Shown one piece after another: positions 8,182-58,652 of a stretch of 64,000 nt of DNA. Origin of the DNA: Rhodanobacter sp. OK091 (lineage in GTDB: Bacteria > Pseudomonadota > Gammaproteobacteria > Xanthomonadales > Rhodanobacteraceae); the NCBI RefSeq assembly GCF_900142825.1, contig NZ_FRCH01000002.1, forward strand, positions 806,001 to 870,000. The letters are read 5' to 3'. Under the pieces are notes generated by a model. It did not search any database and had not been told where the DNA came from. It saw nothing but the letters and a program-made list of their open reading frames with translations. How positions within the stretch are numbered: the stretch's first letter is position 1; each line of letters starts with the position of its first letter. The position numbers and the translations under genes are program-made.

Positions 8182-8200
8182 ACCCACCACCTTACTAGGA

Positions 8201-14502: not shown

Positions 14503-14712
14503 ATGTCTACCGGTTCGCGCCCGTCGGAAACGTTGTACGAAGTGGTGGTCAACCAGGATGGCCAATATTCGACTTGGCCGGTGTTCAAGGCATGGCCGCA
14601 AGGGTGGGCGAAGGCGGGCAAGCAGGGGGCTAAGGCGGCTTGCCTCGAATTTATCGGCGTGACGTGGACTGACATGCGGCCGACATCACTCGGCGCTAGC
14701 GTGCGCCGTTAG
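14503..14712 (+). CDS. mbtH: MbtH-like protein
   Basis: Small cofactor that binds NRPS adenylation domains and aids their folding or activity. 69 residues, typical length. YEVVVNQDGQYSTWPVFKAW contains the family signature NxExQxSxWP (here NQDGQYSTWP), and the second half has GWAKAGKQGAKAACLEFIGV and WTDMRPTSL, the family's C-terminal WTDMRPxSL. A good Shine-Dalgarno (AGGAG) sits 5 bases before the ATG. It is the first gene of the locus and the only A domain nearby is the serine domain at the end of the megasynthase, its probable partner. Confidence 0.95.
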   Translation: MSTGSRPSETLYEVVVNQDGQYSTWPVFKAWPQGWAKAGKQGAKAACLEFIGVTWTDMRPTSLGASVRR

Positions 14713-18268: not shown

Positions 18269-21200
18269 ATGAACGTCGGTCAGATCCCGCAAAGCCAGCC
18301 GTCTCCCGCACGCGAGGACATCGCCATCGTCGGCATGTCGTGCCGCCTTCCGGGCGCCGAAAACTACCAGCAGTACTGGCGCAACCTTAGTGAGGGACGC
18401 TCCAGTGTGAGCGAGGTGCCGGCGAGCCGCTGGGACGGGGCCGCGTTCTATGCAGCCGACGTGAGCGAGCCGAACAAGTCGACCAGCAAATGGGGCGGCT
18501 TTATCGACGGCGTGGAGTACTTCGACGCCGACTTCTTCGGCGTGTCAGCGCGCGAAGCGGCGGTGATGGACCCGCAGCAGCGCATCATGCTCGAGCAGGC
18601 ATGGCATTGCCTGGAGGATGCCGGCTACGACCCGTGCGGATTCAGCGGTACCCGTACCGGCGTCTATATCGGTGTCTTCACCTTCGACTATCGCGATCAC
18701 CTGGGCGACGCGCTCGACGCCATCGAGGCTCACGTCGCGACCGGCACGCACACCGCGCTGATCCCCAATCGCATCTCCTATTTCCTCAATCTGCACGGCC
18801 CCAGCCTGCCGGTTGACACTGCGTGTTCGAGTTCGCTGGTGGCGCTGCACAAGGCTGCCCACGCCATCCGCCGCGGCGAATGCGAGCAGGCGCTGGTGGG
18901 CGGGGTGAGCGTTCTATGCAGCCCCACGCATTTCATCTCGTTCTCCAAGACCGGCATGCTCTCGCCGGACGGCAGCTGCAAGACCTTCGACGAGCGTGCG
19001 AACGGTTATGTGCGCGGCGAAGGCGCGGCCATGGTGCTGCTCAAGCCACTGGCGAAGGCCATCGCCGACAACGACCGGATCCTGGCTGTACTGCGCGGCT
19101 CGGCCATGAACCACGGCGGCCACGCACGCACGGTCACCTATCCGAGTTCGCTCGCGCAGTCGAACGTTATCGCGCAAGCCCTGCGCGAAGCCGCCGTGCC
19201 GGTGGGCACGGTGAGCTACGTGGAGGCGCACGGTACCGGCACGCCCAAGGGCGATCCGATCGAGATCGAAGGGCTGAAGATGGCTTTCGCCCGCGTCGCT
19301 GCCGAGCGCGGCGAGGTGCTGGACGAGCGCACCTGCGGCATCGGCAGTGTCAAGACCAACGTCGGCCACCTCGAAGCAGTAGCGGGGATGGCCGGCCTGA
19401 TCAAGACCATCCTGTGCATGCGGCACGGGGTGTTGCCGCCCCTGGTGCACTATCGCAAGCTCAATCCGCGCATCGCGCTGGACGGGAGTCCGTTCTTCAT
19501 CGTCGACGAAGCCCAGCCCTGGGCGACCCGCATCACGGAAGATGGCCAGCCGATCCCGCGCCGGGCAGGCATCAGTTCCTTCGGCTTTGGCGGTGTGAAT
19601 TCGCACGTCGTGGTCGAGGAGTACCTCGGCGGCAATGCGCCGGCCGACGCGGCGCCATTGTCGCGCACGCCCGCGTGCATCGTGCTTTCCGCGAAAACCG
19701 CGTCGGTGTTGCGCGAGCGCGTGCGACAGCTGTTCGATGCGCTCGCTTCCGGCGACATCGGCGAGAAGGACTTGGCCGACCTGGCGTACACGCTCCAGGT
19801 AGGGCGGCAGGCGATGGCGGCGCGCCTGGCCACGGTGGTCGATACGGTGGCGACGCTGTGCGAGCGGCTGGAGCGGTGGCTTGCCGATGATACGAACGAC
19901 GGAAGCGTCTTCATCGGCGAGCTCACGGCCGAGATGATGGCATCGGCCGCCGACGTGCCGCCGGTGTCGCCCGATGTTGATCTCATGGCGACGGCGCAGC
20001 GCTGGGTGCACGGCCAGGCCTTCGACTGGGCCGCTCTGCACGTGTCCGGCTCACGCCGGCGCCTGGCCTTGCCGACCTATCCGTTCGTCAGGGAAAAGCA
20101 CTGGATCGAGATGAAGGCCGCGCCCGGCGCGCAGGCGGCAATCCATCCGCTCCTGCACAGCAACACCTCAAACGTCGCGGGGCTTCGCTTCACCAGCCGC
20201 TTCACGGGGCGCGAGAGCTTTCTCGCCGACCACGTCGTGCTCGCGCGGCGTACCCTGCCGGCCGCGGCCCAGTTGGAGATGGTCCGCTGCGCGGCGGAGC
20301 TCGCATTCGCCACCGCAGGCAGTTGTCGCGTGGAGAACGTCGTGTGGCTGCGTCCCTTCGTGACGGGAGACGAGCCCAGGGAATGCCACGTTGCGCTGTT
20401 TCCCGAAGGAGAGGGACGCTTCGCTTTCGAGATCTACGACGATATCGACGACGGTACCGTCTATAGCCAAGGCGTGGTGGTGAAGCGGGCATCCGACCCG
20501 GACGCCGTCACCCATGACCTCACGTCGATACGCGCGCACTGCGGCCGTCCTCGTCGCGATGCGAACGCGTACTACGCGTTGTTCGAGCGCATGGGTCTCG
20601 CCTACGGACCCGCGCATCGCTCGCTGGGCGAATTTTTCGTCGGTGAAGCGGAAGCGCTGGCGCGCATCGTCCTTCCCGAGACGTCGAAGTCGTCGCAAGG
20701 CGATTACAGTTTGCACCCCAGCGTACTCGACGCGGCGCTGCAAGCGGCCATCGCCTGTCTCGTGGAGCAAGACCCCGATGCCGGGCTCGCGCTTCCGTTC
20801 GCGCTCGCATCGCTGGAAATCATGGCGCCATGCAACGCCGACCTGTGGGCGGTGATTCGCCGCGAACCCGGTCATAGCCCGGGCGATGCGCTGAACCGGT
20901 TCGAGATCGACCTGTGCAGCGACGCCGGCGCCGTATGCGCACGTCTTGGCGGCTTCTGCCTGCGCACGGTGAATCCGGCGCACGAGGAGACAACGCGAAC
21001 GGCGTTGCTCGTGCCCGCGTGGCATGCGCGGTCCGCGATGATCGGGGCAGGTGGCCATGCGCAACACATGGTCATGCTTTGCGCCGGTGCGCCGTCGGCC
21101 GACCTACAGCTGCGCCTGCATGGCGTGACCTGCATCGACATCGACGATGACGACGATACGGCGCGGCGCTACGAATCGGCAGCCGCGCTGCTGCTGGAAA

Positions 21201-24200
21201 ATATCCAGGCCATGGTCCGGCAGCCCGGGCGGCACCTGATTCAGATCGTCGTGCCGCAAACGAGCGATGGGCGGCTCATGGGTGGCCTCGGTGGCCTGCT
21301 GCTTACCGCACAGCGCGAGAACCCGCGCGTCGTTGGCCAGGTGATCGAGCTCGAGGCGGGGCAGGACATCGCTCAGGCCATCATCGAGAACCGTGACAGC
21401 CTCGCTTCGCGCATTCGCTACGTGGGCGGCGTGCGACAGGAGGGGCATTGGACGGAAGCCACGCCGCCATCCACCACAAGCTCGCCTTGGAAGGCCGGTG
21501 GCACTTATCTCATCACCGGTGGCGCTGGCGGCCTGGGGCGCATCCTCGCGCGCCGGATCGCCGCTGAAGCAAAGGGCGCCACGCTGGTGCTCACCGGGCG
21601 TTCGCCATCGACGGATGCGTTGGAAGCCAGCTTCGCCGACATCGTGGCGGCAGGCGCCACGGTGCGCTATCGCCAGCTCGATATGGGTGACGGCGCGGCG
21701 GTGAACCGCCTTGTTCGCCAACTCGCCGCGACGGCCGGCGGCTTGCACGGCATCGTCCATGCGGCGGGCGTCCTGCGCGACAGCCTGCTCGTGCGCAAGA
21801 CGCGCGACGAACTGCGCGAGGTGCTGCGTGCGAAAGTCGCGGGCACGCTGCACCTCGACGCGGCCAGCCGCGACCTGGATCTCGACGTTTTTATCTGCTT
21901 CGCCTCGACTTCCGGCGCGCTCGGCAATGTGGGACAGGCCGACTACGCAGCGGCCAACGCCTTTATGGATGTCTTCGCCCGCCAGCGGGTGGAACGTGTC
22001 GCCCAGGGCCTGCGCCGGGGCCGCACGCTGTCGGTGGACTGGCCGCTGTGGGCAGAGGGTGGCATGCGGGTTGATGAAGCGACCCGCGCGGAGATGATCG
22101 CGCAGACCGGCCTGGTACCGCTGCGCACCGTCAGCGGTCTCGCCGCACTGGAGCAGGCGCTTGCGCTGGACGTGCCGCAGGTGCTGGTTGCCGAGGGAGC
22201 GATCGCGCGCTTCATGGCCGGGCTCACGCATGTGCCGGCCGCACCGTCGGCAACCGCGGGCTCGGCAGGCACGCTTTCCGACGAGCTGCGCGACAAGGCC
22301 GTGCGCTATTTCGTCCGCCTGCTGGCCGGCACGCTCAAGCGGCCGGCCGAGAGCATCGACGCGAAGGCGCGGCTGGAAGCCTACGGCATCGATTCGATCC
22401 TGGTGATGGAACTGACCCGTTCGCTGGAACAGGTGTTCGGGCCGCTGTCCAAGACCTTGCTGTTCGAATACCAGACCATCGCCGACGTCGCCGGACATTT
22501 CCTCGACGAGCATCGTGACCGCCTGAGCGAAGTGCTGGGCGAGAACGCGCAGGACGCTGCGGTAACAGTCGCGCCGCGGCATGCCGCCGAACCTGTGCAG
22601 GCACCGGCGTCGCTCCGCCCTCGCTTCGGCACGGAGCAGGGCACGCGCGGTGACGTGGCGAGGGTGGTGCCGGATGCTTCCGCGAACACCGTCGGCGAGA
22701 TCGCCATCATCGGCGTGGCCGGGCGCTATCCGCAGGCCGCCGATCTCGAAGCCTTCTGGGCGAACCTGAGCCAGGGCAAGGACAGCATCACCGAGATTCC
22801 GCCCGAACGCTGGGACTACCGCGATTACTACGACGCGGACCGCGACGCGCCGGGCAAGACCTACGGCAAGTGGGGCGGCTTTATCGACGGCGTGGACCGC
22901 TTCGATCCCTTGTTCTTCAATATCTCCCCGCGCGAAGCGGAATTGATGGATCCGCAGGAGCGGCTATTCCTCGAATGCGTGCACGCGACGCTGGAGGATG
23001 CGGGCTACACGCGCGACAACGTGGCCGAAGACGGCAACGTCGGCGTGTTCGCCGGTGTGATGTACGAGGAGTACCAGCTCTACGGCGCGCAAGAGCAGGC
23101 CCGCGGCAACAACCTCGCGGTGTTCAACAGCCCCGCGTCGGTGGCCAATCGCGTCTCTTACTTCTGCAACTTCAACGGCCCGAGCCTGGCGCTGGACACC
23201 ATGTGCTCGTCGTCATTGACGGCGATCCATCTGGCTTGCCAGAGCATCCAGCGTGGCGACTGCGCGGTGGCGTTGGCGGGCGGCGTCAACGTCTCGATCC
23301 ACCCGAACAAATACCTGATGCTGGCCCAGGGTCGCTTTATCTCGGGCAAGGGCCGCTGCGAGAGTTTCGGCGAGGGCGGCGAAGGCTACGTGCCGGGTGA
23401 GGGCGTCGGTGCCGTGTTGTTGAAGTCACTGGCACAAGCGAAGGCCGATGGCGACCACATCTACGGCGTGATCCGCGCCACTGCGGTCAACCACGGCGGC
23501 AAGACCAACGGCTACACGGTGCCGAACCCCAACGCGCAGGCGCGGGTGGTCGAGCGCGCGTTGCGCCGGGGTGGTGTCGATGCGCGTGCGATCAGTTACA
23601 TCGAGGCACACGGCACGGGCACCAGTCTTGGCGATCCGATCGAGATCGCAGGGCTAGCCAAGGCCTTCCGCCACTGGACGCGGGACACGGGCTACTGCGC
23701 GATCGGTTCGGCGAAGTCGAACATCGGTCATTGCGAGAGCGCGGCGGGTATCGCCGGCATCACCAAGGTGCTGCTGCAACTGAAGCATCGGCAGTTGGCG
23801 CCGAGCCTGCATTCGGCCGTGTTGAATCCGAATATCGATTTCGACACCACGCCGTTCGTGGTGCAGCAGGAACTGGCCGCATGGCCGCGGCCGGTGATCG
23901 ATGGCCACGAACGGCCGCGCATTGCAGGCATCTCCTCGTTCGGCGCAGGCGGTGCGAACGCCCACGTGGTGATCGAGGAATACACGGCGCCGGTTCTGGC
24001 GACAGCGACGGGGCCGGCCCTGGTGGTGTTCTCGGCCCGGCACGAGGATCGCCTGCGCGAGCAGGCCGAACGCCTGCTCGCCGCCATCGAAGTGAATCCG
24101 GAGCTGCCGCTGCACGACCTGGCGTACACGCTGCAGGTCGGCCGCGAAGCGATGGACGAACGCCTCGCGCTGCTGGTCCATTCGCTGGACGAACTGCGCG

Positions 24201-45200: not shown

Positions 45201-48200
45201 CGATTGGCTCGGCCAAGTCGAACGTGGGTCATAGCGAGAGCGCGAGCGGCTTCGTTGCGCTCAGCAAGGTGCTGATGCAGATGCAGCATCGGATGCTGGC
45301 GCCGAGCCTGCATGCGTCGACGCCCAACCCGGAAATCCGCTTCGCCGACACGCCATTCTTCGTGCAGCAGGCGCTCGCTCCGTGGCCGCGTCCGCAGCTC
45401 GACATCGACGGCCGCCGCCATGAGTTTCCGCGGCGTGCAGGCATTTCCTCGTTCGGCGCGGGCGGGGCGAATGCTCACCTGGTGATCGAGGAGTACGTCG
45501 AGCCGGCATCGCCGGGCCGCGTAGGCCAGCCAGCCGGTCCCGCCATGATCGTGCTTTCGGCGCACGATCCCGAACGCCTCAAGGCGCGTGCCGAGCGACT
45601 GGCGGCGGCGCTGGCTCCCGAGCGGCGCGCTACCGACATGGTGTTGGCGGACCTCGCCTACACCTTGCAGGTAGGGCGCGAGGCGATGGAGGAGCGGCTG
45701 GCCTTGCTGGTGGAATCGCTCGACGATCTGCACGCAAAGCTGACGGCGTTCGTCGCCGGCAGCAAGGACGTCGACGACCTTTATCAGGGCCAGGCGAAAC
45801 GCAGCGCTTTCTCCGCGCTCGCTGACGACGAGGATATGCAGGTGACCGTGCAGGCCTGGGTCGCCAAGGGCAAGTACGGCAGGCTGCTGGATCTGTGGGT
45901 GAAGGGCTTCGCGTTTGACTGGAACGGGCTCTACGAGGGTGCGGTGCGGCCGCAGCGGATCAGCCTGCCGACCTATCCGTTCGCGCGCGAGCGGTGCTGG
46001 ACGAACGTGCGCTATCCCGACGCACCGGAAGCGCTTCCGGCGACGGGGGCCGTGCGGACGAACGTTCCGGTTACCGTGGCGTGCGAGGTCCGGATGGCCG
46101 ATCCCGCGCAGACCATGATGCGCATCTGGTGCGAGCTGCTGGGCCGCCCGTCGGTTGCTCTCGATGACGATTTCTTCGAGCTCGGCGGCCATTCCTTGCT
46201 GGCGACGCAGCTGGCCGTGCGGATTCGCGACGAGTTCGGGGTGGATCTGCCGGTAGGCACGATTCTCGAAGCGCCTACCGTGGACGCGCTCGTGCAGCAC
46301 CTTGGCAAGCTCGCGCCGGCACCCGCTGCAGCAGAGTTTCCGCAGGCAGCGCCGGACACCTCAGCGGACATGGCGTTCCCGCTGTCGTTCGCGCAGCAAC
46401 GGTTGTGGTTCCTCGATCAGCTGGAAGGGCATAACCCCACCTACAACATCCCCGCCGCGGTGCGCCTGAAGGGCAGGCTGGATGCTGCCGCGCTGGAGGG
46501 AGCCCTCAACGACGTTGTCGCCCGCCACGACGCTCTGCGCGCGCACTTCGGCAGCGTGGACGGTACGCCGCTGCAGTACATCGCCGCGCATCTGGAACTG
46601 CCGCTGGTGCTGCACGACCTGGGTGGCGTCGCGCCGAAGGAGCGCGAGGCGAAGACGCACTGGCTGATGCTCGACGAAGCGCGCACGCCGTTCGACCTGC
46701 AACGCGGCCCGCTCGTGCGCGGCAGCCTGCTGCGGCTGGCTGACGAGGAATATCTGCTGCTGTTGAGCATGCATCACATCGTCTCCGACGGCTGGTCCAT
46801 GGGCATCCTCGTGCGCGAGCTCGGCGCCTTCTACGCCCATCGCAGTTTTGGCGCCGAGGTGGCGCTGCACGAGCTGCCGATGCGTTACGTCGATTTCGCC
46901 CGCTGGCAGCGCGAGTGGCTGAGCGGCGAGGTGCTGGAACGCCAGCTGGGTTATTGGAAGAAACAACTGGCCGGCAGTCCGACACTGCTGACCCTACCGA
47001 CCGATCGTCCACGCCCGCTCACGCAGGGCCAGGATGGTGCCGCACTGGCCTACGCTCTCCCGGCCGAGCTTGGCGCGAAGCTGCATGCGCTGAGCCGCAA
47101 GTCGCAGGGCACCTTGTTCATGACCCTGTGCGCCGCCTTCAACGTGCTGCTGGCCCGCTATTCCGGCCAGACCGACATTTGCATCGGTACGCCGATCGCC
47201 AACCGCAACCGCAGCGAGATCGAAGACCTGATCGGCTTCTTCGTCAACACCCTGGTGCTGCGCACCCAGGTGGATATGCGCGCCGGATTTACCGATCTGC
47301 TCAAACAGGTACGCGCCGCCACGCTCGACGCCTACGCGCACCAGGACGTGCAGTTCGAACAACTGGTGGGCGCGGTGCAGCCCGAGCGCCATACCAGCTA
47401 CTCGCCGCTGTTCCAGGTGATGCTCGTGTTGCAGAACTCGCCGCTCAACCTGGCGTTGCCGGGGCTGGAGCTGGAGCTGGTGCCGCACGAGACGGTGACC
47501 GCCAAGTTCGACATCACGCTGACACTGAGCGAAGGCCCGCAAGGCCTGTACGGCAGCTTCGAGTACAACACCGACCTGTTCGACCGCGCCACGATCGAGC
47601 GGATGGCTGGTCATTTCACGCATTTGCTGCAGGCGATCGTGGCCGAGCCGGAGCGCCCCGTAGGCGAGCTGAGCATGATGGGCGAGGCCGAGCGCCGGCA
47701 TCTCGTCTACGGCTTCAACGACACCGCGAAGGTCTATCCGCGCGTGGGGCCGGACACGCACACGCTGCACCAGCTGTTCGAGGCGCAGGTGGCGCGCAGC
47801 CCCGACCATGCGGCGGTGGTGTATGAAGGCGCGTCGCTGAGCTATGCCGAGCTCAATGCGCGAGCCAATCGCCTGGCGCGTCACCTGCGCCGTCTCGGCG
47901 TGGGACCCGACGTGCTGGTCGGCCTGTGCACCGAGCGCTCGATCGAAATGATCGTGGGCCTGTACGCAATCGTGAAGGCTGGCGGCGCCTACGTGCCGCT
48001 GGACCCCACTTATCCGGCCGACCGCCTGGCGACCATCGTGGAGGATGCAGCTCCCGCCGCGATCCTCACCCAGCAGCACCTGCGCCATGCGGCGCCGTCA
48101 GTGCCCGGTGTGCCGGTGCTCTGCCTCGACGGCGACACCGGGATGTGGGCCGGCGAAGATGCCGGCAATCCCGTCAACGCTACGCAGCCGGGTCACCTGG

Positions 48201-50371
48201 CCTACGTGATCTACACCTCGGGTTCCACCGGCAAGCCCAAGGGGGTCGGCATCGACCACCGCGGCATCGTCAACCGCCTGCAATGGATGCAGGAGGCCTA
48301 TCCGCTGACCGGCGCCGACCGCGTGCTGCAGAAGACGCCTTTCAGCTTCGACGTCTCGGTGTGGGAGTTCTTCTGGCCGCTGCTGGAAGGTGCCACGCTG
48401 GTCGTTGCCAAGCCCGGCGGCCACCAGGACGTGGCCTACCTGGCTGGCCTGATCGACGCCGAAGGCATCACTACCACGCACTTCGTGCCACCGATGCTCG
48501 AGGTCTTCCTCAACGAGGTGGAACCCGGCAGCGGGCGTTCGTTGCGCCAGGTGATGTGCAGCGGGCAGGCGCTGCCGTTGGATCTGCAGCAGCGCTTCTT
48601 CACCACCTGGGATCACGTGGAGCTGCACAACCTGTATGGCCCGACGGAAGCCTCGGTCGACGTCACCTACTGGCAGTGCCGCAAGGACAGCGCGCTGAAC
48701 TGCGTGCCGATCGGCAAGCCGATCGCCAACATCCAGATCCACATCCTCGACGACTTCCTCAATCCGGTGCCGGTGGGTGTAGTGGGGCACCTGTTCATCG
48801 CGGGCGTCGGCCTCGCGCGCGGCTACGTCAATCGCCCGGACCTGACCGCGCAGACCTTCATCCCCAATCCGTTCAGTGCGACGCCGGGCGCGCGCATGTA
48901 TCTGTCGGGCGATCTCGCGCGCTACTTGCCGGACGGCACCATCGAGTATCTCGGCCGCAGCGACCACCAGGTGAAGATCCGCGGCCTGCGCATCGAGCTC
49001 GGCGAGATCGAGTCGACGCTGGCGGCGCTGGACGTTGTGCGCGACGTGGTGGTGCTGGCTCGGCCGGACGAGCGCGGCATCCCGCGCCTGGTGGCCTACC
49101 TGGTGGCTCACGACGGCCAGGTCTTGCCGGACCCGGCCATGCTGCGCCGGACCCTGGCGCAAACGCTGCCCGACTACATGGTGCCGGAGTACTTCGTGCC
49201 GCTCCCGGTAATGCCGCTCACTTCCAACGGCAAGGTCGATCGCAAGGCGCTGCCTGCGCCTGAAATGGCGCATGACGAGGCCGAGCACATCGCGCCGCGC
49301 ACTACCACGGAGAAGGCCATCGCGGCGGTGTGGTCGGAGCTGCTGAAGGTGGAGAAGGTCGGCCTCACCGACGATTTCTTCGAACTGGGCGGCCATTCGC
49401 TGCTGGCAACGCAGCTGGTCTCGCAGTTGCGCAAGCGCCACGTCGCCGAGATCGAGCTGCGCGACCTGTTCTCGCATGCCACGCTGGGCGCGCTGGCGGC
49501 GTTTGTCGACGCGCGCAAGCAGGGTGGCATGCATCCGAATCTGGTGCCGATCCGCGCGAAGGGCTCGGCGGCGCCGCTGTTCCTGATCCATCCCATCGGC
49601 GGCGGCGTGCAGTATGCCTTCGACCTCGCGCAGCACTTGGACGCCAATCAGCCCGTGTATGGGCTGGCGGTGGGCGAAACGCCGCAAGCGAGCATCGACG
49701 ACATGGCGTCGACCTATCTGGGCGCCATCCGCGAAGTACGGCCGTCCGGTCCCTACTTGCTGGCCGGCTGGTCGCTGGGCGGCATGGTTGCCTACGAGAT
49801 CGCCCACCGGCTGCTGGCGTCGGGCGAGGATGTGCAATTCGTGGGCATGATCGACACCAGCGGCCCGTCGGTGCGCGCGAAGCAGCGCGACGAACATCCG
49901 GTCAAGCACGATGGCTGCCGCGCGCTGCTGAACTGGCTGCTCGATCTGAACCTGGCCGGTGATTGGCGCCGCCATCCCGCGTACGCCGAATTGATGGCGA
50001 GAGCCCAGCGCGGTGACCTCGACGGCGTGGTTGCGCTTTGCCTGAGCGCTGCACTGGTGCCGCCCGGCGTGGACGCTGAGCAGGTGCGGAGCACGGCGGC
50101 GCTGTACGAAGCGTGCGGCCGCGCGGCCGACGATTATCGGCCGCCCGTGGCGCAGTTGCCGGTGACGTACTTCGCGGCGGATCGGCGCGAAGGCGAGGAC
50201 GTCGCGCTGGGTTGGCGCGAGTTGCTGGGCCGGCATCTGGAGGTGTCGAGGATCGGCGGTTCACACCTGTCGATCGTCAAGGCACCGCTGGTCGAAAAGC
50301 TCGCGCGGGATATCTCGGTTCGGATCGCACGCTACGCACCGAACCTCTCCTTCACCGCCGCCAACCCGTGA
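18269..50371 (+). CDS. Giant trans-AT polyketide synthase / NRPS megasynthase
   Basis: One open frame of 10,700 residues (roughly 1.1 MDa) that builds a polyketide chain and condenses it with serine. Modules in order: KS-DH-KR-ACP; KS-DH-KR-ACP; KS-DH-ACP; KS-DH-KR-ACP; KS-KR-ACP; KS-KR-MT-ACP-DH-ACP; KS0-PCP; C-A-PCP-TE (each listed separately). No AT domain is present, so malonyl units come from the AT of the preceding gene. No ER is present; the PfaD-type ER upstream must act in trans if any double bond is reduced. The frame opens earlier (18116), but the ATG at 18269 has AGGAAGG about 8 bases upstream and begins a normal KS leader. There is no N-terminal loading module, docking peptide or GNAT. 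The P450 gene begins 33 bases after the stop. Domain calls rest on visible active-site motifs; product structure is inference. Confidence 0.97.
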   Translation: MNVGQIPQSQPSPAREDIAIVGMSCRLPGAENYQQYWRNLSEGRSSVSEVPASRWDGAAFYAADVSEPNKSTSKWGGFIDGVEYFDADFFGVSAREAAVMDPQQRIMLEQAWHCLEDAGYDPCGFSGTRTGVYIGVFTFDYRDHLGDALDAIEAHVATGTHTALIPNRISYFLNLHGPSLPVDTACSSSLVALHKAAHAIRRGECEQALVGGVSVLCSPTHFISFSKTGMLSPDGSCKTFDERANGYVRGEGAAMVLLKPLAKAIADNDRILAVLRGSAMNHGGHARTVTYPSSLAQSNVIAQALREAAVPVGTVSYVEAHGTGTPKGDPIEIEGLKMAFARVAAERGEVLDERTCGIGSVKTNVGHLEAVAGMAGLIKTILCMRHGVLPPLVHYRKLNPRIALDGSPFFIVDEAQPWATRITEDGQPIPRRAGISSFGFGGVNSHVVVEEYLGGNAPADAAPLSRTPACIVLSAKTASVLRERVRQLFDALASGDIGEKDLADLAYTLQVGRQAMAARLATVVDTVATLCERLERWLADDTNDGSVFIGELTAEMMASAADVPPVSPDVDLMATAQRWVHGQAFDWAALHVSGSRRRLALPTYPFVREKHWIEMKAAPGAQAAIHPLLHSNTSNVAGLRFTSRFTGRESFLADHVVLARRTLPAAAQLEMVRCAAELAFATAGSCRVENVVWLRPFVTGDEPRECHVALFPEGEGRFAFEIYDDIDDGTVYSQGVVVKRASDPDAVTHDLTSIRAHCGRPRRDANAYYALFERMGLAYGPAHRSLGEFFVGEAEALARIVLPETSKSSQGDYSLHPSVLDAALQAAIACLVEQDPDAGLALPFALASLEIMAPCNADLWAVIRREPGHSPGDALNRFEIDLCSDAGAVCARLGGFCLRTVNPAHEETTRTALLVPAWHARSAMIGAGGHAQHMVMLCAGAPSADLQLRLHGVTCIDIDDDDDTARRYESAAALLLENIQAMVRQPGRHLIQIVVPQTSDGRLMGGLGGLLLTAQRENPRVVGQVIELEAGQDIAQAIIENRDSLASRIRYVGGVRQEGHWTEATPPSTTSSPWKAGGTYLITGGAGGLGRILARRIAAEAKGATLVLTGRSPSTDALEASFADIVAAGATVRYRQLDMGDGAAVNRLVRQLAATAGGLHGIVHAAGVLRDSLLVRKTRDELREVLRAKVAGTLHLDAASRDLDLDVFICFASTSGALGNVGQADYAAANAFMDVFARQRVERVAQGLRRGRTLSVDWPLWAEGGMRVDEATRAEMIAQTGLVPLRTVSGLAALEQALALDVPQVLVAEGAIARFMAGLTHVPAAPSATAGSAGTLSDELRDKAVRYFVRLLAGTLKRPAESIDAKARLEAYGIDSILVMELTRSLEQVFGPLSKTLLFEYQTIADVAGHFLDEHRDRLSEVLGENAQDAAVTVAPRHAAEPVQAPASLRPRFGTEQGTRGDVARVVPDASANTVGEIAIIGVAGRYPQAADLEAFWANLSQGKDSITEIPPERWDYRDYYDADRDAPGKTYGKWGGFIDGVDRFDPLFFNISPREAELMDPQERLFLECVHATLEDAGYTRDNVAEDGNVGVFAGVMYEEYQLYGAQEQARGNNLAVFNSPASVANRVSYFCNFNGPSLALDTMCSSSLTAIHLACQSIQRGDCAVALAGGVNVSIHPNKYLMLAQGRFISGKGRCESFGEGGEGYVPGEGVGAVLLKSLAQAKADGDHIYGVIRATAVNHGGKTNGYTVPNPNAQARVVERALRRGGVDARAISYIEAHGTGTSLGDPIEIAGLAKAFRHWTRDTGYCAIGSAKSNIGHCESAAGIAGITKVLLQLKHRQLAPSLHSAVLNPNIDFDTTPFVVQQELAAWPRPVIDGHERPRIAGISSFGAGGANAHVVIEEYTAPVLATATGPALVVFSARHEDRLREQAERLLAAIEVNPELPLHDLAYTLQVGREAMDERLALLVHSLDELRAKLTAHLAGDTAIDGVYRGQVRRNKEALSAFAGDDDVDAIVDAWIARGKFGKLLDLWVKGLAIDWRRLRGDTPVRRISLPTYPFARERYWIQTGDVRPAMAAAAGTNLHPLLQRNTSDIEGPRFSARFSGHEFFFADHVVRGTRMLPGVAQLEMARRAIIEVAGAGFEPCLKNVSWMRPIVAGSEGIALHVSLYPEADGAIGFEIHGDDDEGLIYAQGTAFDGHAAEAVAGHDLAALRQSCTSTHTTEECYAAFSRMGLNYGPAFQGVRELHTGAGRVLARIAVPTAAPADGYELHPSLLDAAFQATLGLQFPVSAAAVPQVPFALGGLRVLRSCADVAWAVVRYSNGSSARQTVPRLDIDLCNELGAVCVRLTEVALRAMAAEASEPATPRTLLLEQAWTVKAAQAVIGEPLASHLVMACGVDMGNAMHGLPGATLVVASVDGGLAARFEAAAAMLLERLQSLTTQAGMHRVQLVVPSEGDNRPMAGLLGMLRTAALENPRILGQLVAVESGQDVAAALLENRDDDARHVRYVGGERQVASWAECPPAAAVSPWKDHGVYLVTGGAGGLGSIFAEAIAREVRNPVLVLTGRSTPDERILATIRRLEALGAVVRYHVIDVADVDALTGVVRGIPEEFESLDGVVHAAGVLRDGYLAGKTRQHLRDVFAAKVAGTLNLDDATRDIPLDCFVCFSSIAGAAGNVGQADYAAANAFMDAFAQERADRVVRGERHGRTLSVNWPLWAEGGMRADEATRAMLARQWGMHAMGTTNGVEALRRALATGLSQVLVIEGEPARIREVFLGAPRIAATPASRSVVASADPSAPSTQTLRDPLKRALTAMVSSLIKVKPEDLDGDTSLSEYGFDSISLTGFANALNRQYGLELMPTLFFEYPTLDGLAGYLEREHRDVLAARFAAPAVAAPVPASVVHAANDESIPASTRARTRRGFAAAVVAPSPTAKEPVAIVGISGRFPQAEDIDAFWRNLAEGRDCIGELPPARADWLAWHGERSPAGHAARAVRGGFIDGVDEFDPAFFGISPKEAELMDPQQRLMMIHVWKALEDAGYAASALAGSDLGLYVGTMPSGYATLASRAGAAIEGYSSTGTVASVGPNRMSYFLGVHGPSEPVETACSSSLVALRRAVLALERGDCAMAVAGGVNTIVNPELHISFERAGMLSEDARCKTFSADANGYVRSEGVAMLVLKKLSDAERDGDHIYGLVRGTAENHGGRANSLTAPNPAAQAAVIRRAHEVAGIDPRTVTYIEAHGTGTPLGDPVEVNGLKAAFRELYVATGESSVAAAHCGLGSVKTNIGHLELAAGVAGVVKVLLQMKHRTLVKSLHAEVLNPYIDLAGSPFHVVTDAREWTALRDAQGRPVPRRAGVSSFGFGGVNAHVVLEEYIAPVMDVVTTTGPVAVLLSARDSERLHEQVQRLADFVAAPATPVALADLGYTLQTGREPMAERLGFVATSLDDLHGKLARFLDGTGEAHRGRADKPRDAAGEGMDGTIQEWIAQGRLDALVGLWVQGHAIDWRRLHAGRTPRRISLPTYPFATERYWVSPDAGASRASAAVLHPLVQNNTSTLAGPRFSSRFGGNEIVLADHRVGGRAVLPGVAQLEMARFAVGTAMESGATLHLKDVAWMRPVIAGDEGVALHLSLYPEDGGKVAYELHADDDTGLVYGHGTVSTMASGPAPVAHDMVALRARCASRHFDAATCYAVFDAMGLGYGEGFRGLVELFAGDGVALARLALPEAWRTEGSAYAWPPGMLDAALQASIGLYLGAGGDTPPLMLPVSLAALDVLGPCANAMWAVVRQGDVTGEVDIDLCGDDGVPCLRFRKLTFRSAEPGVSAPVPAAIDHALEPPASDILPEAGPAVAMASRAEDDDGFLERATRHFERFLSTALKLPLQRIDRRARMETYGIDSLMVLDLTRSLEKTFGPLPKTLFFEYQTLADLAAYFARQHREALAALLGERRSVAAVALSPVATKVEKASSLHPASRARYDMRSRADRAGGEDAGAIAIIGVAGRYPQAADLEAFWANLSQGVDSITEIPVDRWDHALYFDEDRNAPGKTYGKWGGFLDGVDRFDPLFFNISPREAELMDPQERLFLECVHATLEDAGYTRDNVAEGGNVGVFAGVMYEEYQLYGAQEQVRGKPLAVSGHPASIANRVSYFCNFRGPSLALDTMCSSSLTAIHLACQSIQRGDCAVALAGGVNVSIHPNKYLMLAQGRFISGKGRCESFGEGGEGYVPGEGVGAVLLKSLAQAQADGDHIYGVIRATAVNHGGKTNGYTVPNPNAQAEVIERALRKGGVDARHISYIEAHGTGTSLGDPIEIAGLSKAFGHWTQDKGYCAIGSAKSNIGHCESAAGIAGVTKVLLQLKHRQLAPSLHSAVLNPNIDFDTTPFVVQQELAAWPRPVIDGRERSRIAGISSFGAGGANAHVLIEEYVETVANAQESGPAIVPLSARDEDRLREQVQRLLAAIEANPTLPLHHLAYTLQVGREAMDERLALLVHSLDELRDKLAAWLTGETAIDELYQGQAKRNRDALAELTDDADMDGTVRAWLVKGKHGKLLALWTKGLAFDWRSLHGDRHARRVSLPSYPFARERYWLPLGTAPSVALPAAALHPLLHRNTSTFALQRFSSHFTGRESFLADHVVRGSCVLPGVAQLEMVVRAVREALDGDEPLRLVDVAWQRPVVVDADGLDVHVGLLPQDDGAIRFEIFHDEAMVCAEGSVELVAAGETLAAYDIDSLRQACDALRLDAAQCHSAFERMGLAYGPSLRALAEIFVGAGQALARIALPAGISLEGYALHPSLLDAALQATLGLASPAGDTLWLPATLASLDIHAACTARMWAVVKQRVEHDAARRTFDIDLCDEAGRICVRFGGLVLRQAASAVSETAQVLLATPAWQVRKVSGVTAGIAAKHAVLLCGLAPSELEQVRTATTFADATSIAIGDDLVQAYEAAATALLEILRAWATEPGPCLVQVVVPMRGAGQLMAGLEGMLRTARLENPGIRGQVICVEAGQDVARTLAENSGDDAVSIRYADGVRQVAAWVEAAPALDAVSPWKAGGTYLITGGAGGLGLIFARDIARRAPGAILVLTGRSPLNGATQAALDELAALGAQARYRPLDVGDREAVLACVREIADADGLDGIVHSAGVLRDGFILRKTRDDLRDVLRAKVAGTLYLDEASRELALDAFIVFSSLAGAIGNVGQADYAAANAFMDAFAHQRNTLVAQGQRRGRTLSVNWPLWEQGGMRVDAATRRHLWQEKGMTPLATADGCDALACAWSLDSPQVLVVAGDPERLRAEVLGVAPMVAARAPDRIEQRRAPAPERQAESLDATADDLRERSVRHLVRLLSTTLKLPPQRIDAEARLETYGIDSVMTLDLTARLEQAFGPLPKTLFFEYQTIAALADYFLQHHRAALAGLLGESVAAPASTVAVSAPTAPVATSRLRARFAARADTPEDGIAIIGVAGRYPQARNLEEFWANLSQGKDSITEIPRDRWDHSLYFDADRNAPGKTYGKWGGFIDGIDRFDARFFNISPREAELMDPQERLFLECVHAALEDAGYTRDNVAEDGDVGVFAGVMYEEYQLYGAQAQAHGRFVAAPGSPASIANRISYFCDFHGPSLALDTMCSSSLTAIHLACESLSRGGCAVAIAGGVNLSVHPNKYLVLAQGKFISAKGRCESFGEGGEGYVPGEGVGAVLLKPLARAKADGDHIYGVIKASAVNHGGKTNGYTVPNPNAQAKVVERALRAGGIDARHVSYIEAHGTGTSLGDPIEIAGLAKAFGHWTQDRGYCAIGSAKSNIGHCESAAGIAGLTKVLLQLKHRQLAPSLHSAVLNPNIDFAATPFVVQQELAAWPRPVIHGRERPRIAGISSFGAGGANAHVVVEEYMSPAMARASAAPAMVLLSARDEERLRARARELLACLATPDIELADLAYTLQVGREAMDERLALLVHSLDELRVRLAAYLAGETAAEGLYLGQVRRGAGALAALAGDDDMAGTLATWFARGKYDRLLDLWTKGLHVDWQRLHGDSEHPRRISLPTYPFAGERHWFPMGTTPLPSRVESASVPETPAAASETLLFRSAWSAIASERSGDGFASHFILLCGLEDGHVARIRERFPQATCLVAPAEADLAASFESAAATLLEKLQALSAQTGRHLIQVVVPREGEWQALAGLDGMLRTARLEHPRLVGQLIAVEAGQDLVRVLQDDGEAQRVRYVRGERQASHWVEARPATQAASPWKQHGVYLITGGAGGLGLIFARAIAREVRNPVLVLTGRSAMDETIKGQLRQLEALGAVVRYHAVDVADADAVAALVRSIPEEFESLDGIVHSAGVVRDSFLVAKTRDELHAVLRAKVAGTLNLDRASHDMALDTFICFSSIAAVTGSVGQADYAAANAFMDAFVHERAERVLRGERRGRTLSIDWPLWAEGGMQVDAATRTMMSQQLGMHPLSTEDGLQALRDAWASDASQWLVVSGDAQRIREAVLGATSQAAVERPGVSTDDADRGTSSREAVWQSLATLVSSLIKVKPEDLDGETTFSEYGFDSVSLTEFGNALNQRYQLRLTPTVFFEHSTLDGLVDHLVDEQGVVLAPPPVRTGVVASPSIVPVREPSPADTPAPAPAADEPIADESSADESSTDEPVAIVGISGRFPHAADIDAFWQNLRDGRDCIDEIPPARWDWRSLHGDAGREAHRTHIIWGGFIDGVDEFDPMFFGISPKEAELMDPQQRLMMIHVWKALEDAGYAGSALAGSDTAIYVGTGATGYGRLVDRAGLGGEAYASTGGVPSVGPNRISFLFDWHGPSEPVETACSSSLIALARGVAAIRRGDASVAVVGGVNTIVTPEAHISFSKAGMLSADGRCKTFSADANGYVRGEGVAMLVLKKRADAERDGDHIYGLVRGVAENHGGHANSLTAPNPTAQAEVIRKAHRQAGIDPRTVTYIEAHGTGTRLGDPIEVQGLKAAFGGETFAAPYCGLGSVKTNIGHLELAAGVAGVVKVLLQMKHRTLVKSLHSDRLNPYLELDGSPFYVVREAGEWAPLRDARGHVLPRRAGVSSFGFGGVNAHVVLEEYLAPATARASSEGPVAVLLSARDEERLREQVRLLLDFVTSTDVDLADLAYTLQLGRETMEARLAVVVRSMDELRDRLRSMVSGDGKEGRIHRGVASRGRRDAVHDARTVDAWIEARDVEPLLEAWVQGLAFDWRRLYGAHTPRRISLPTYPFARGRYWVPDATVPSHAEVAEPVASGHEWLLLPTWQVVEPKLAPIAQSGRSLIVGGSPKQRAALLAALPDATALEWPALANIAAIEYRLRASGSFGRLVWLADVDEADVDEANADKADDDESLIVAQERGVVAGFRLVKALLALGFDQRALDWTIVTVQTQAVHGSDTVAPRHAAVHGFAGAVAKEFAHWRVRLLDLPREGAWPVDTMCRVLDEHRGATLAWRGGQWFRQVLSRMAAASVEGALPYREGGVYIVVGGAGGIGQAWSEHMIRSHRARIVWLGRRAEDDAITQARNRLGALGPAPLYIAADASDRVALERAREEVLARYGTIHGVVHAAIDLLDKSVAQMDEERLRAGLSAKVVASVRIGQVFGALPLDFMLFFSSLAGFVRAAGQGNYAAGCTFKDAYALHLAKCLPYPVKVINWGYWGSVGVVASNDYRERMARQGIGSIEPAEGMQALDRLLRSPVPQLGFLKATREDVRGGVFDLVGDARVRLLPARFDSLAQTLAQGAAPVFPGDAAQLAAEGREIDRLALAILRGELQALGLTDSALVASRHARWLQHSLRWIAETPGATAPSLDHAWATWNERKTAWQGTGHVRQAQVTLVDTMLRALPAILQGRVEATAVMFPDSSMRLVEGVYQGNAVADHFNDVLCDAVCAFVAARIARDPAARIRIAEIGAGTGGTSARVMARLAPYTEHIGEYCYTDLSRAFLLHAEGKYGPHYPYLSYRLLDIGSPLEGQDVEAGTYDLAIATNVLHATKDIRESLRNAKALLGANGLLVLNELASCELWSHLTFGLLDGWWLYQDEALRIPGCPSLSPTRWNAVLREEGYRHVHFRAEPAHGLGQQVIVAESDGVSLQKRPLLASVPASVHARVDTPAVSRPVEAAAAPLRSSADAASLRERCRARLAKLVGKALKMPVGEIDTAQGLDRYGMDSILVLELTNALRAAFEEIGIEERVSSTLFFEHPTIDALADHFVAIEPEAMARWTDTHVTPPVRRHPMLHRDSSDATARRHSSHFDGAEFFLADHRVHGRRVLPGVAQLEMARAAAQGAMPTSARIRLGQIAWVRPAVADESGLSLSLTLTPERDGAFGFALRGDDGAVYSQGIASPDATPVEAAGRHDLAALRARCVVAHVGHERCYAVFDSKGLQYGPAFRGVDELLVGEGEVLARISLPAAVASSLHDYVLHPSLLDAALQASLGLHLVARGEDGIALALPFALDAVKVFAPCVAEMWVFVRHAEGTPAGGDIHQLDIDLCDADGAVCVRLEKLSLRFFHPKSSQPSSRETNTDRNTADMNDSTGITSHHSHANGALPATAVLREKSILQLRKLISRRLSLPLEAIGASVGFDEYGLDSILVMELTDSLREVFGMEAIGATLFFEHHDIDGLVDHFMRTDADALARWTGLAATPPAVHEALSAAAVHASVPAAAEVLPVATTISSVPAVAAPFDVAIVGMSGRYPGANDVHQFWDNLAAGRHSVTEVPTERWEHGRFFDERKGQPGKTYTRYAGLLDDVQGFDRLFFNIAPAEARLMSPQERLFMQEVHASIEDAGYTAANLGATRKIGVFVGVTNEHYATGTRFWSIANRIAHLCNFQGPSLAVDTACSSSLTAIHLAIESLRSGDSEVAIAGGVNLIVAPTQLIDLASMAMLSADDKCKSFAAGADGFVDAEAVGAFVLKPLHRAMADGDHIYGVIKGSAINSGGKTHAYLVPNPNLQAQLVTDALRRAGVDARTVSYVEAQGTGSHLGDSIEVAGLAKAFRQWTQDRQFCAIGSAKSNVGHSESASGFVALSKVLMQMQHRMLAPSLHASTPNPEIRFADTPFFVQQALAPWPRPQLDIDGRRHEFPRRAGISSFGAGGANAHLVIEEYVEPASPGRVGQPAGPAMIVLSAHDPERLKARAERLAAALAPERRATDMVLADLAYTLQVGREAMEERLALLVESLDDLHAKLTAFVAGSKDVDDLYQGQAKRSAFSALADDEDMQVTVQAWVAKGKYGRLLDLWVKGFAFDWNGLYEGAVRPQRISLPTYPFARERCWTNVRYPDAPEALPATGAVRTNVPVTVACEVRMADPAQTMMRIWCELLGRPSVALDDDFFELGGHSLLATQLAVRIRDEFGVDLPVGTILEAPTVDALVQHLGKLAPAPAAAEFPQAAPDTSADMAFPLSFAQQRLWFLDQLEGHNPTYNIPAAVRLKGRLDAAALEGALNDVVARHDALRAHFGSVDGTPLQYIAAHLELPLVLHDLGGVAPKEREAKTHWLMLDEARTPFDLQRGPLVRGSLLRLADEEYLLLLSMHHIVSDGWSMGILVRELGAFYAHRSFGAEVALHELPMRYVDFARWQREWLSGEVLERQLGYWKKQLAGSPTLLTLPTDRPRPLTQGQDGAALAYALPAELGAKLHALSRKSQGTLFMTLCAAFNVLLARYSGQTDICIGTPIANRNRSEIEDLIGFFVNTLVLRTQVDMRAGFTDLLKQVRAATLDAYAHQDVQFEQLVGAVQPERHTSYSPLFQVMLVLQNSPLNLALPGLELELVPHETVTAKFDITLTLSEGPQGLYGSFEYNTDLFDRATIERMAGHFTHLLQAIVAEPERPVGELSMMGEAERRHLVYGFNDTAKVYPRVGPDTHTLHQLFEAQVARSPDHAAVVYEGASLSYAELNARANRLARHLRRLGVGPDVLVGLCTERSIEMIVGLYAIVKAGGAYVPLDPTYPADRLATIVEDAAPAAILTQQHLRHAAPSVPGVPVLCLDGDTGMWAGEDAGNPVNATQPGHLAYVIYTSGSTGKPKGVGIDHRGIVNRLQWMQEAYPLTGADRVLQKTPFSFDVSVWEFFWPLLEGATLVVAKPGGHQDVAYLAGLIDAEGITTTHFVPPMLEVFLNEVEPGSGRSLRQVMCSGQALPLDLQQRFFTTWDHVELHNLYGPTEASVDVTYWQCRKDSALNCVPIGKPIANIQIHILDDFLNPVPVGVVGHLFIAGVGLARGYVNRPDLTAQTFIPNPFSATPGARMYLSGDLARYLPDGTIEYLGRSDHQVKIRGLRIELGEIESTLAALDVVRDVVVLARPDERGIPRLVAYLVAHDGQVLPDPAMLRRTLAQTLPDYMVPEYFVPLPVMPLTSNGKVDRKALPAPEMAHDEAEHIAPRTTTEKAIAAVWSELLKVEKVGLTDDFFELGGHSLLATQLVSQLRKRHVAEIELRDLFSHATLGALAAFVDARKQGGMHPNLVPIRAKGSAAPLFLIHPIGGGVQYAFDLAQHLDANQPVYGLAVGETPQASIDDMASTYLGAIREVRPSGPYLLAGWSLGGMVAYEIAHRLLASGEDVQFVGMIDTSGPSVRAKQRDEHPVKHDGCRALLNWLLDLNLAGDWRRHPAYAELMARAQRGDLDGVVALCLSAALVPPGVDAEQVRSTAALYEACGRAADDYRPPVAQLPVTYFAADRREGEDVALGWRELLGRHLEVSRIGGSHLSIVKAPLVEKLARDISVRIARYAPNLSFTAANP
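18314..22500 (+). other. Module 1: KS-DH-KR-ACP
   Basis: Residues ~16-1411 of the megasynthase. KS1 has Cys186 (VDTACSSSL), EAHGTGT and NVGHLE, so it looks fully active and elongating. DH1 has His655, but the motif reads HVVLARRTLP, with Ala where HxxxGxxxxP has Gly; Asp821 (VLDAALQ) is intact. KR1 has GGAGGLG and Tyr1226 (GQADYAAAN), with VLRD indicating a B-type (D-hydroxyl) ketoreductase. ACP1 carries phosphopantetheine Ser1376 (GIDS). Expected product: an alpha,beta-enoyl chain, or a hydroxyl if DH1 is weakened. As first module it would need a starter supplied in trans. Confidence 0.88.
22693..26925 (+). other. Module 2: KS-DH-KR-ACP
   Basis: Residues ~1476-2886. KS2 Cys1646 (LDTMCSSSL), EAHGTGT, NIGHCE. 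DH2 His2115 in HVVRGTRMLPG and Asp2278 (LLDAAFQ), complete. KR2 with Tyr2684 and VLRD (B-type). ACP2 Ser2842 (GFDSISL). KS2 belongs to a near-identical group with KS4 and KS5. ACP2 and the following KS3 resemble ACP5 and KS6. Confidence 0.9.
27074..30110 (+). other. Module 3: KS-DH-ACP, no KR
   Basis: Residues ~2936-3948. KS3 Cys3107 (VETACSSSL), EAHGTGT, NIGHLE. DH3 His3576 in HRVGGRAVLPG and Asp3742 (MLDAALQ), but the usual LHPSLLD reads WPPGMLD. About 150 residues after the DH comes ACP3 (Ser3896, GIDS); there is no NAD(P)H-binding KR between them. The DH would have no beta-hydroxyl to act on unless it works on a substrate formed earlier or a KR acts in trans. Confidence 0.88.
30230..34496 (+). 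other. Module 4: KS-DH-KR-ACP
   Basis: Residues ~3988-5410. KS4 Cys4160 (LDTMCSSSL). DH4 His4628 in HVVRGSCVLPG and Asp4790 (LLDAALQ). KR4 Tyr5193 with VLRD. ACP4 Ser5359 (GIDS). Complete set for a trans-type double bond, as B-type KRs paired with DHs usually give. KS4 DNA is almost the same as KS2 DNA over hundreds of bases. Confidence 0.9.
34595..37992 (+). other. Module 5: KS-KR-ACP
   Basis: Residues ~5443-6575. KS5 Cys5614 (LDTMCSSSL). After the KS and its linker comes a non-catalytic KR half, then KR5 (VYLITGGAGGLG, Tyr6378, VVRD). No DH motif lies between. ACP5 Ser6532 (GFDSVSL). Expected to leave a beta-hydroxyl group. Confidence 0.9.
38096..38146 (+). repeat. 15-bp acidic linker repeat before KS6
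   Basis: Three 15-bp units encode DEPIA-DESSA-DESST followed by DEP in the linker between ACP5 and KS6. Units 2 and 3 differ by only one base. Confidence 0.75.
38141..44100 (+). other. Module 6: KS-KR-MT-ACP-DH-ACP
   Basis: Residues ~6625-8611. KS6 Cys6796 (VETACSSSL) with EAHGTGT and NIGHLE. KR6 has VVGGAGGIG and Tyr7603, with YAAGC instead of YAAAN, a form I associate with KRs placed before methyltransferases. The C-methyltransferase (~7790-8060) has the SAM loop EIGAGTGGT. ACP6 Ser8143 (GMDS). Then, without a KS, DH6 (His8236 in HRVHGRRVLPG, Asp8401 in LLDAALQ) and ACP7 (Ser8563, GLDS). Predicted result: alpha-methyl, beta-hydroxy, then dehydration to a methyl-branched alkene after transfer to, or contact with, the DH-ACP unit. 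Confidence 0.87.
40193..40249 (+). repeat. 15-bp acidic repeat inside the KR6 structural half
   Basis: Units encode DVDEA-DVDEA-NADKA-DDDE; the first two 15-bp units (GATGTCGATGAGGCC) are the same apart from the last base. The insert lies in a loop of the non-catalytic KR subdomain. Confidence 0.75.
44234..46325 (+). other. Module 7: non-elongating KS (KS0) - carrier protein
   Basis: Residues ~8656-9353. Cys8813 is present (VDTACSSSL) and the second His (His8988, NVGHSE) is kept, but the first His is replaced: EAQGTGS, Gln8948. Loss of this residue stops decarboxylative condensation while chain transfer remains possible, as established for KS0 domains. The next domain is a carrier with the peptidyl-type motif DDFFELGGHSLL (Ser9309). 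So the unit hands the finished polyketide to the condensation domain without adding carbons. Confidence 0.9.
46370..50371 (+). other. Module 8: C-A(Ser)-PCP-TE termination module
   Basis: Residues ~9368-10700. C domain with HHIVSDG (catalytic His9503). A domain with YTSGSTGKPKG and Lys10322 (NGKVDRKAL). The ten specificity residues, aligned to GrsA/EntF, read D V W H M S L V D K (Asp10028 first), which matches the serine code (EntF: DVWHFSLVDK). PCP Ser10377 (GGHSLL). Type I thioesterase with Ser10502 (GWSLGG) and His10666 (GGSHLS), expected to release the acyl-serine by hydrolysis or cyclisation. No epimerisation domain, so L-serine is expected. Confidence 0.92.
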
Positions 50372-57616: not shown

Positions 57617-57733
57617 AACATGGTCCTCGATAAGAAATGGGGGCCGCGCAGCCGATGGGTGGGTGTCGATACGGTCTGCGCGGCGGATGGGCCGACAGCC
57701 GGTGGGATCGGGTGCGAGGTCGAGTTGGGGGAT

Positions 57734-58534: not shown

Positions 58535-58595
58535 GGTGTCACTCCGTTGTGAGGGGGCTGGTCAATGCGTGGATGCATTCTGGCCTCGCCCTGGC

Positions 58596-58624
58596 GTGAC
58601 TTAAATGACGTATATGGTTATGAT
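58596..58624 (+). promoter_or_regulatory. Candidate promoter of the GlxA-type regulator
   Basis: GTGACT (58596-58601), exactly 17 bp, TATGAT (58619-58624), 28 bases before the ATG at 58653, in the 118-bp gap between divergent genes. The motif CATGACGT/AATGACGT appears twice in the same gap. Confidence 0.45.
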
Positions 58625-58652
58625 TTATGCCATGACGTGACGGAGGACGGAC

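Follow-up and report, generated by a model that had tools for sequence, protein, structure and literature searches.

The nearest described chemistry that we found for the line analysed here is that of solanimycin (sol) of Dickeya solani, in which, according to the passages of PMC10204066 used here, a polyene chain of trans-acyltransferase (trans-AT) origin is linked to glycine and to residues derived from serine. The same passages describe an acyltransferase (AT) protein with two AT-like domains that acts in trans, a serine-activating module of nonribosomal peptide synthetase (NRPS) proposed to act five times, few modules of polyketide synthase (PKS), and NRPS modules on separate proteins. PMC10394414, in the part cited here, is a catalogue from 2023 that covers 8,799 assembly lines and includes 860 trans-AT PKS-NRPS hybrids, and the majority of its lines have 3,000-9,000 residues and 3-7 ketosynthase (KS) domains. 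Here we analyse a giant gene of this kind from Rhodanobacter sp. OK091, located in the 64,000 nucleotides between positions 806,001 and 870,000 of contig NZ_FRCH01000002.1 (hereafter the window, whose first letter is position 1). It encodes a real, conserved and apparently uncharacterised natural-product line of a known kind. Against the cited ranges of the catalogue, seven KSs is an ordinary number and the line, though long, is no extreme case. It resembles the solanimycin system in its trans-AT PKS with a predicted polyene-type acyl chain, in the two AT-like domains provided in trans and in the activation of serine, but has six extension modules and carries its NRPS on the same chain. For this reason we did not adopt an assignment to the solanimycin type; the NCBIfam models for SolG and for the P450 SolI were matched far below their cut-offs.

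The open frame of the giant gene has an ATG start, a single terminal stop, zero internal stops and zero N, and its stop-to-stop frame opens after the TAA at 18053. The computed mass of the protein is 1,149 kDa (~1.15 MDa), which together with the frame check confirms an earlier reading made from the letters alone (hereafter the sequence-only reading), where a single polypeptide of 10,700 residues and roughly 1.1 MDa had been announced. We scanned the protein with Pfam in 19 pieces, leaving out ~29 residues near 8621-8649. The first half reads KS-DH-KR-ACP twice, KS-DH-ACP, KS-DH-KR-ACP and KS-KR-ACP, and the second half KS-KR-MT-ACP-DH-ACP, KS-PCP and C-A-PCP-TE, exactly the order that had been proposed. 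The scanned pieces contain no AT or ER domain at E ≤ 0.001, again as proposed. The lack of Acyl_transf_1 in the 19 pieces and the presence of a separate AT gene in the cluster place the line among the trans-AT systems, and C-A-PCP after the PKS modules on the same chain makes it a PKS-NRPS hybrid. Chance can be excluded because domain E-values go down to 4e-116 (C domain) and the full order recurs in other genomes.

We searched for relatives in 233 genomes of the family using the KR6-MT-ACP-DH-ACP segment (1,414 residues) as a query at E ≤ 1e-60. Matches were found in 21 genomes. In eight of them, including that of the window, nearly the full query was matched, at 61-100%, in frames of 10,608-11,516 codons. 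We annotated 60 kb around each of the seven other loci (labels such as G144 and P0042 are our own). Six have exactly the domain order of the window in one frame, and the seventh (G144) has one added C-A-PCP before the TE. Over the whole length, the orthologues are 68-89% identical to the window protein, and the serine code, the loss of a His in KS7, the AT-AT-ER protein, the P450 and the MATE transporter are kept in all orthologous lines. Since these orthologues lie in single frames, the single-polypeptide form is real and shared across genera. The module order, which had been called unusual, is therefore not unique to the window, being common to six other complete lines, and we rejected uniqueness as a description. 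The one-polypeptide layout is real, but it is the usual one in this lineage, where sibling frames have 8,704 to 13,392 codons. Three partial relatives, each possibly from a genome already counted, extend the picture: P0042 covers residues 23-6963 and P0002 residues 4352-10699, in the same order and at 65-66%. The third, P0001 (Luteibacter sp. PPL552), spans residues 5869-10700 and has an extra C-A-PCP. The added A domain of G144 and P0001 has a different code. Full-length orthologues were not among the best 120 of 448 protein matches, none of which exceeded 7,987 aa, probably because of a length limit in the collection. A search for KS7-PCP at E ≤ 1e-200 gave 15 of 398 sampled genomes of the order, all from the family of the window, Rhodanobacteraceae, to which we take Dyella and Luteibacter to belong.

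The motifs indicate how the line may work. KS1 to KS6 all have EAHGTGT, whereas KS7 keeps the Cys of VDTACSS and reads EAQGTGS, having lost the His of HGTGT in 8/8 orthologous lines. KS7 should thus pass the chain on without extension, and its sequence supports the prediction of a non-elongating KS (KS0), as it had been labelled. The A-domain code, read with the columns of the window protein, is DVWHMSLVDK in all eight orthologous lines and in P0002. We take this to be the serine signature of the Stachelhaus literature, and it supports the serine terminus that had been foreseen, as the scan supports a single C-methyltransferase. KS2, KS4 and KS5 are mutually 85-91% alike and KS3 is 75% alike to KS6, which points to duplicated module pairs. 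Among solved structures, and by score ranking only, the best relatives of KS1, KS3 and KS7 include 7zma and PksJ (4na1), presumably both KSs of trans-AT lines, in agreement with the trans-AT assignment. The highest-scoring solved sequences for these three domains are 7zma, 7zmd and 7zsk, which contain two KSs and thus a summed score; the best entry with one KS is PksJ (4na1) for KS1 and KS3. We take the former three to be the bimodule core (KS-DH-ACP-KS) of a Brevibacillus trans-AT line, i.e., a fragment of another line with a product that is unrelated as far as known.

The domain order speaks for a trans-AT PKS-NRPS line that is complete within a single polypeptide, and a working line of this kind, started by its N-terminal KS, is with good confidence the best explanation overall. 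The AT-AT-ER protein would deliver malonyl units in trans. With no loading domain ahead of it, KS1 would take a short acyl starter directly; the N-terminal KS1 lacks such a domain in every annotated line in which the start is covered. Modules 1, 2 and 4 would add two-carbon units that end as double bonds, and module 5 would leave a hydroxyl. Module 6 would extend, reduce and C-methylate the chain, and its second half (DH-ACP) would dehydrate it, giving an acyl chain that is alpha-methylated and alpha,beta-unsaturated. KS7 would only transfer this chain to the next PCP, with no condensation, the C domain would couple it to serine, and the TE would release the product, to be oxidised by the P450 and exported by the MATE pump. 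The likely product is serine carrying a C12-C14 unsaturated hydroxyacyl chain, which is alpha-methyl-enoyl at its amide end. The polyene of the sequence-only reading stands as a prediction only, given that module 3 lacks a KR, that a hydroxyl is expected from module 5 and that a trans-ER is encoded next to the gene.

The order of module 6 is best explained as an evolutionary mosaic, in which a KR-MT-ACP block lies inside a module of the sibling type and separates its KS from its DH-ACP. We compared 150-residue tiles from KS6 to PCP7 with four sibling lines (G141, G153, G118 and G016C3) and refined the edges with 80-residue tiles. The siblings match the tiles starting at 6601-7051 at 45-85% (68-85% inside KS6, at 6676-6976). 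They match those starting at 7201-8026 at no more than 31% or not at all, and those starting at 8176-9151 at 37-83%, including 41-59% for the second DH and ACP (8251-8551) and 56-83% for KS7 (8626-9001). The tiles at 7201-8026 instead match, at 35-77%, a module on contig C16 of G016 that reads DH-KR-MT-ACP. In the family search, the block is matched best, next to the orthologues, in G200 (64%) and G016 (61%), and the KR-MT part has no counterpart at the position of module 6 in the sibling lines. In the control stretch KS3-DH3-ACP3-KS4, every tile matches all four siblings (33-91%). The left edge of the block is near 7210, just after the post-KS linker. From these comparisons, the module looks as if KR-MT-ACP had split an arrangement, KS-DH-ACP followed by the KS0, that the sibling lines have intact. 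We infer an insertion in the lineage of the window because the four siblings are without the block, although it may instead have been lost in the siblings. The transPACT study reports block insertion and replacement in trans-AT PKSs, with recombination sites behind the KSs (PMC7930024, in the parts considered). The window shares with these exchanges the insertion of a block and the left edge after the post-KS linker. It differs from what those parts of PMC7930024 describe in that the block is a KR-MT-ACP without KS or DH of its own, with a KS on one side and a DH-ACP on the other. The main text of PMC7930024 mentions neither Dyella nor Luteibacter.

The neighbours of each KS were used as a guide to its substrate. 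For the KSs of the window we took the 25 nearest KSs outside the family and compared them with a background of 343 KSs. Left out as family were the rows with names beginning with G, the window, P0001, P0002, P0042, L069 and L070, as well as P0007, P0011, P0012, P0076 and L094. The neighbours of KS7 follow a methyltransferase module in 18/25 cases (109/343 in the background), and those of KS2, KS4 and KS5 follow DH+KR modules in 14-15/25 (68/343). These counts fit an olefin in the substrate of KS2, KS4 and KS5, and an alpha-methyl group in that of KS7.

Several points weigh against the biosynthesis proposed above. The background KSs were gathered with queries from this gene and are biased towards similar and MT-containing modules. 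The neighbours of KS3 and KS6 follow DH+KR modules in 18/25 cases each, though the module before KS6 is KR-only, without DH, so that the guide is not exact. DH1 of the window has an Ala in place of the Gly of HxxxGxxxxP, which makes its activity uncertain. The right edge of the block is fuzzy: with 80-residue tiles, the ACP at 8080-8140 is 29-52% identical to the siblings and 45-57% to G016C16. The pathway as a whole is a prediction from sequence. Finally, module 3 has a DH and no KR in 8/8 orthologous lines, which the simple reading leaves unexplained. Either a reductase acts there in trans or the module is part of a dehydrating bimodule.

The latter is a serious contender, though not the favoured one. 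Modules 2-3 (and 5-6 in some siblings) would then form a dehydrating bimodule in which the hydroxyl comes from KR2, the chain goes through KS3 without extension and DH3 dehydrates it; the chain would be two carbons shorter (C12) and the missing KR would need no explanation. In its favour, the 8 orthologous lines as well as G141, G153 and G118 have a module with a KR ahead of KS-DH-ACP, and the last pair of G118 is KS-KR-ACP-KS-DH-ACP, which we take to be the classical type A arrangement. KS4, the next KS behind KS3-DH-ACP, shares 91% identity with KS2, which is expected to receive an olefin from the module upstream of it; this speaks for an olefin at the position of KS4 too. The order of modules 2-3 fits type A, but in 8/8 lines KS3 is intact at the Cys (ETACSS) and at both His motifs (EAHGTGT and K-T-N/H-I-G-H), which speaks against that type, and in the window module 2 contains a DH of its own in which the motif residues are present. 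Furthermore, a second, partial line of G141 begins KS-DH-ACP-KS-DH, so the KS-DH-ACP piece can stand without a preceding KR.

The other alternatives to a complete working line with an uncharacterised product fare less well. That the line makes an already described compound is improbable: in an open-access paper library, no paper was found that links Rhodanobacter, Dyella or Luteibacter with trans-AT systems, and among the titles and abstract openings listed by looser searches, which also covered Rhodanobacteraceae and Xanthomonadales, none showed such a product. This is weak evidence for the statement of the sequence-only reading that the order matches no named pathway. Still less probable is a mode of the kind proposed for solanimycin, with iteration of the serine module or dehydration of the serine. 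According to the passages used of PMC10204066, solanimycin also joins a trans-AT polyene to serine-derived residues with a single serine module. In the window the serine module is directly followed by the TE, with no downstream C domain to dehydrate the residue, and the A domain added in G144 and P0001 has a different code. That the giant frame is an artefact of misassembly or of a missed frameshift fusing several genes, which the sequence-only reading had named among the results that would overturn it, has nothing in its favour beyond the large size and can be dismissed, because the frame is unbroken in the seven other genomes (two, G144 and G155, are single-contig assemblies) and the partial relatives P0042 and P0002 show the same order on contigs of their own.

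The orthologues are part of a larger set of related lines. KS1 is found at 70-92% in 19 other places of 15 other genomes. G141 (a 13,392-codon frame with four NRPS modules), G118 (11,957 codons, three NRPS modules), G153 (8,898 codons, four NRPS modules, cut at the contig end) and G186b (8,605 codons within the sequence examined, three NRPS modules) differ from the orthologues in the middle and at the end. All of them start with KS-DH-KR-ACP twice, as do the orthologues, P0007, P0011 and P0076, the first KS of G153 being cut. The KS-DH-ACP module is shared with the window by G141, G118, G153 and P0076. The KS-PCP handover is present in G141, G118, G153, G186b, P0011 and P0076, but not in P0007 (Dyella tabacisoli). 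A terminal TE ends G141, G118, G153, G186b, P0007 and P0011 (Dyella choica), the exception being P0076 (Dyella sp. S184), which is incomplete. The siblings differ from the window line by lacking the methyltransferase block and by having 3-4 NRPS modules, with G153 and P0076 cut or incomplete, and their NRPS codes vary. AT-AT-ER, P450 and MATE genes surround G141 and G118, and P450 and MATE genes follow G153. G186b has an MbtH gene upstream and no match to AT-AT-ER in the 14 kb covered there. We know of no product for any sibling line.

Some of these lines have peculiarities of their own. G141 (L059-L061), G153 (L062-L063) and G186b (L067-L068) carry a divergent second C domain, which reads LSPAQEGILFHH ... 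HHLIDD in G141 and G186b. It scores 20-22 bits against the C domain of the window, compared with more than 600 for the ordinary C domains examined, and P0007, P0011 and P0012 also carry such a domain (27-33 bits). The code of the module before it is presumably that of Ser or Thr. In G016:C3 (L009-L010), KS4, the homologue of the KS0, lies before two PCP-like domains and keeps EAHGTGT rather than EAQGTGS, so this handover KS may still extend. The NRPS part of the same line (L009 3134-5139) is split into overlapping frames within the C and A domains, and the line may thus be decayed or contain sequencing errors. The same type of KS1 occurs at two places in G141:C1, G186:C1, G130 (C41, C13) and G125 (C15, C9), which makes recombination between lines in one cell possible.

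The giant gene is likely, though not proven, to belong to a cluster of six genes on the same strand, encoding MbtH, AT-AT-ER, PKS-NRPS, P450, MATE and phosphopantetheinyl transferase (Table 1). The limits that had been suggested, 14503-53977, fit the MbtH gene at the left and the phosphopantetheinyl transferase at the right. The AT-AT-ER protein lies directly upstream of the giant gene in 7/7 orthologous loci (66-92%). It matches TIGR02814 at 643 bits (cut-off 449) and TIGR00128 at 345 bits (cut-off 261), and its ER is of the PfaD family. AT1 has the motif GASLG and is probably an acyl hydrolase, whereas AT2 has GHSLG and is above the cut-off of the FabD model, which suggests a malonyl transferase. 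The P450 (72-96%) and the MATE transporter (75-96%; the alignment of G160 begins at residue 65) are also present in 7/7 loci. The MATE start is probably near 51889. MbtH is matched in 6/7 loci, over 24 residues only in G186, and none was found in G144; the phosphopantetheinyl transferase is matched in 5/7, in three of them at the same place and on the same strand.

Table 1. Positions of the giant gene, its modules and the genes of its putative cluster in the window
Feature	Positions	Strand	Basis and remarks
MbtH-like protein, 69 aa, NRPS adenylation-domain helper	14503..14712	+	Pfam MbtH 8e-18
AT1-AT2-ER trans-acting protein, 1125 aa	14862..18239	+	Pfam; NCBIfam
Giant trans-AT PKS-NRPS, 10,700 aa	18269..50371	+	Open frame, Pfam, orthologues
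Module 1: KS1-DH-KR-ACP	18308..22504	+	Pfam; KS1 N-terminal, no loading domain before
Module 2: KS2-DH-KR-ACP	22688..26908	+	Pfam; motifs
Module 3: KS3-DH-ACP, without KR	27071..30073	+	Pfam; identical make-up in 7/7 orthologues
Module 4: KS4-DH-KR-ACP	30230..34468	+	Pfam; KS4 91% identical to KS2
Module 5: KS5-KR-ACP, beta-hydroxyl expected	34598..37978	+	Pfam
Module 6: KS6-KR-MT-ACP-DH-ACP	38141..44083	+	Pfam; methyltransferase motif EIGAGT
KR-MT-ACP putative mosaic block, ~residues 7210-8180	39896..42808	+	Sliding comparison; right edge between ~8050 and 8180
KS7 (predicted KS0, EAQGTGS) and PCP, handover to NRPS	44234..46318	+	Pfam; motif in 8/8 lines
NRPS C-A(Ser)-PCP and thioesterase (GWSLG)	46370..50338	+	Pfam; code DVWHMSLVDK, 8/8 lines
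Cytochrome P450, 495 aa, predicted tailoring	50405..51892	+	Pfam 6e-83
MATE-family efflux transporter	51889..53280	+	Pfam; open frame from 51706
4'-phosphopantetheinyl transferase	53282..53977	+	Pfam

Five window genes further downstream (57488-63842) have no match at 1e-15 in the ~18-22 kb examined beyond the giant frame in the seven loci. A hydrolase at 55569 and an overlapping frame at 54804 have matches in the loci of G129 and G186. Six genes upstream (1041-12455) have no match in the seven loci, where 2.0-3.7 kb before AT-AT-ER were covered; because of this coverage, the upstream limit of the cluster is set by MbtH alone. A minus-strand frame at 14220-14675 was rejected as a gene, since its apparent conservation results from its overlap with the MbtH gene. 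The 10 kb that begin at 14862, searched against plasmid records, gave one 71% stretch, in Streptomyces xanthii. The upstream part of the window also has a frame of 620 aa that carries the C-terminal domain of a phage tail sheath (5736-7598, +), a diguanylate cyclase with a CZB zinc-binding domain at its N-terminus (9354-10250, -) and a frame for a subtilase-family (S8) peptidase (10596-12455, +), which is among the six genes without match in the covered 2.0-3.7 kb.

The novelty of the locus lies in a family of lines for which we found no product, and not in its mechanism. If our reading is right, a full trans-AT PKS-NRPS pathway is encoded by one gene and a few small helpers, and could be transferred or deleted in one piece with uncommon ease; its product may be a new methyl-branched acyl-serine metabolite. 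The eight orthologous lines, one of which has an added amino-acid module, and the siblings without the methylating block reveal possible evolutionary cut and join sites. These are of interest to engineers of such enzymes, and the natural set makes a direct test possible. A bolder view, which we hold only tentatively and think unlikely to be right in full, is that Rhodanobacteraceae have a class of self-starting, one-polypeptide trans-AT PKS-NRPSs, primed at a dedicated N-terminal KS without a loading domain and diversified, inside one gene, by swaps of blocks smaller than a module. The window line would have arisen when KR-MT-ACP, lacking KS and DH, entered a working module between its KS and its DH-ACP, its split ACP-DH-ACP module would still work, and its KS3 would look competent and yet be non-extending. 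If true, this family would prove by a natural example that blocks smaller than a module can enter at a post-KS site.

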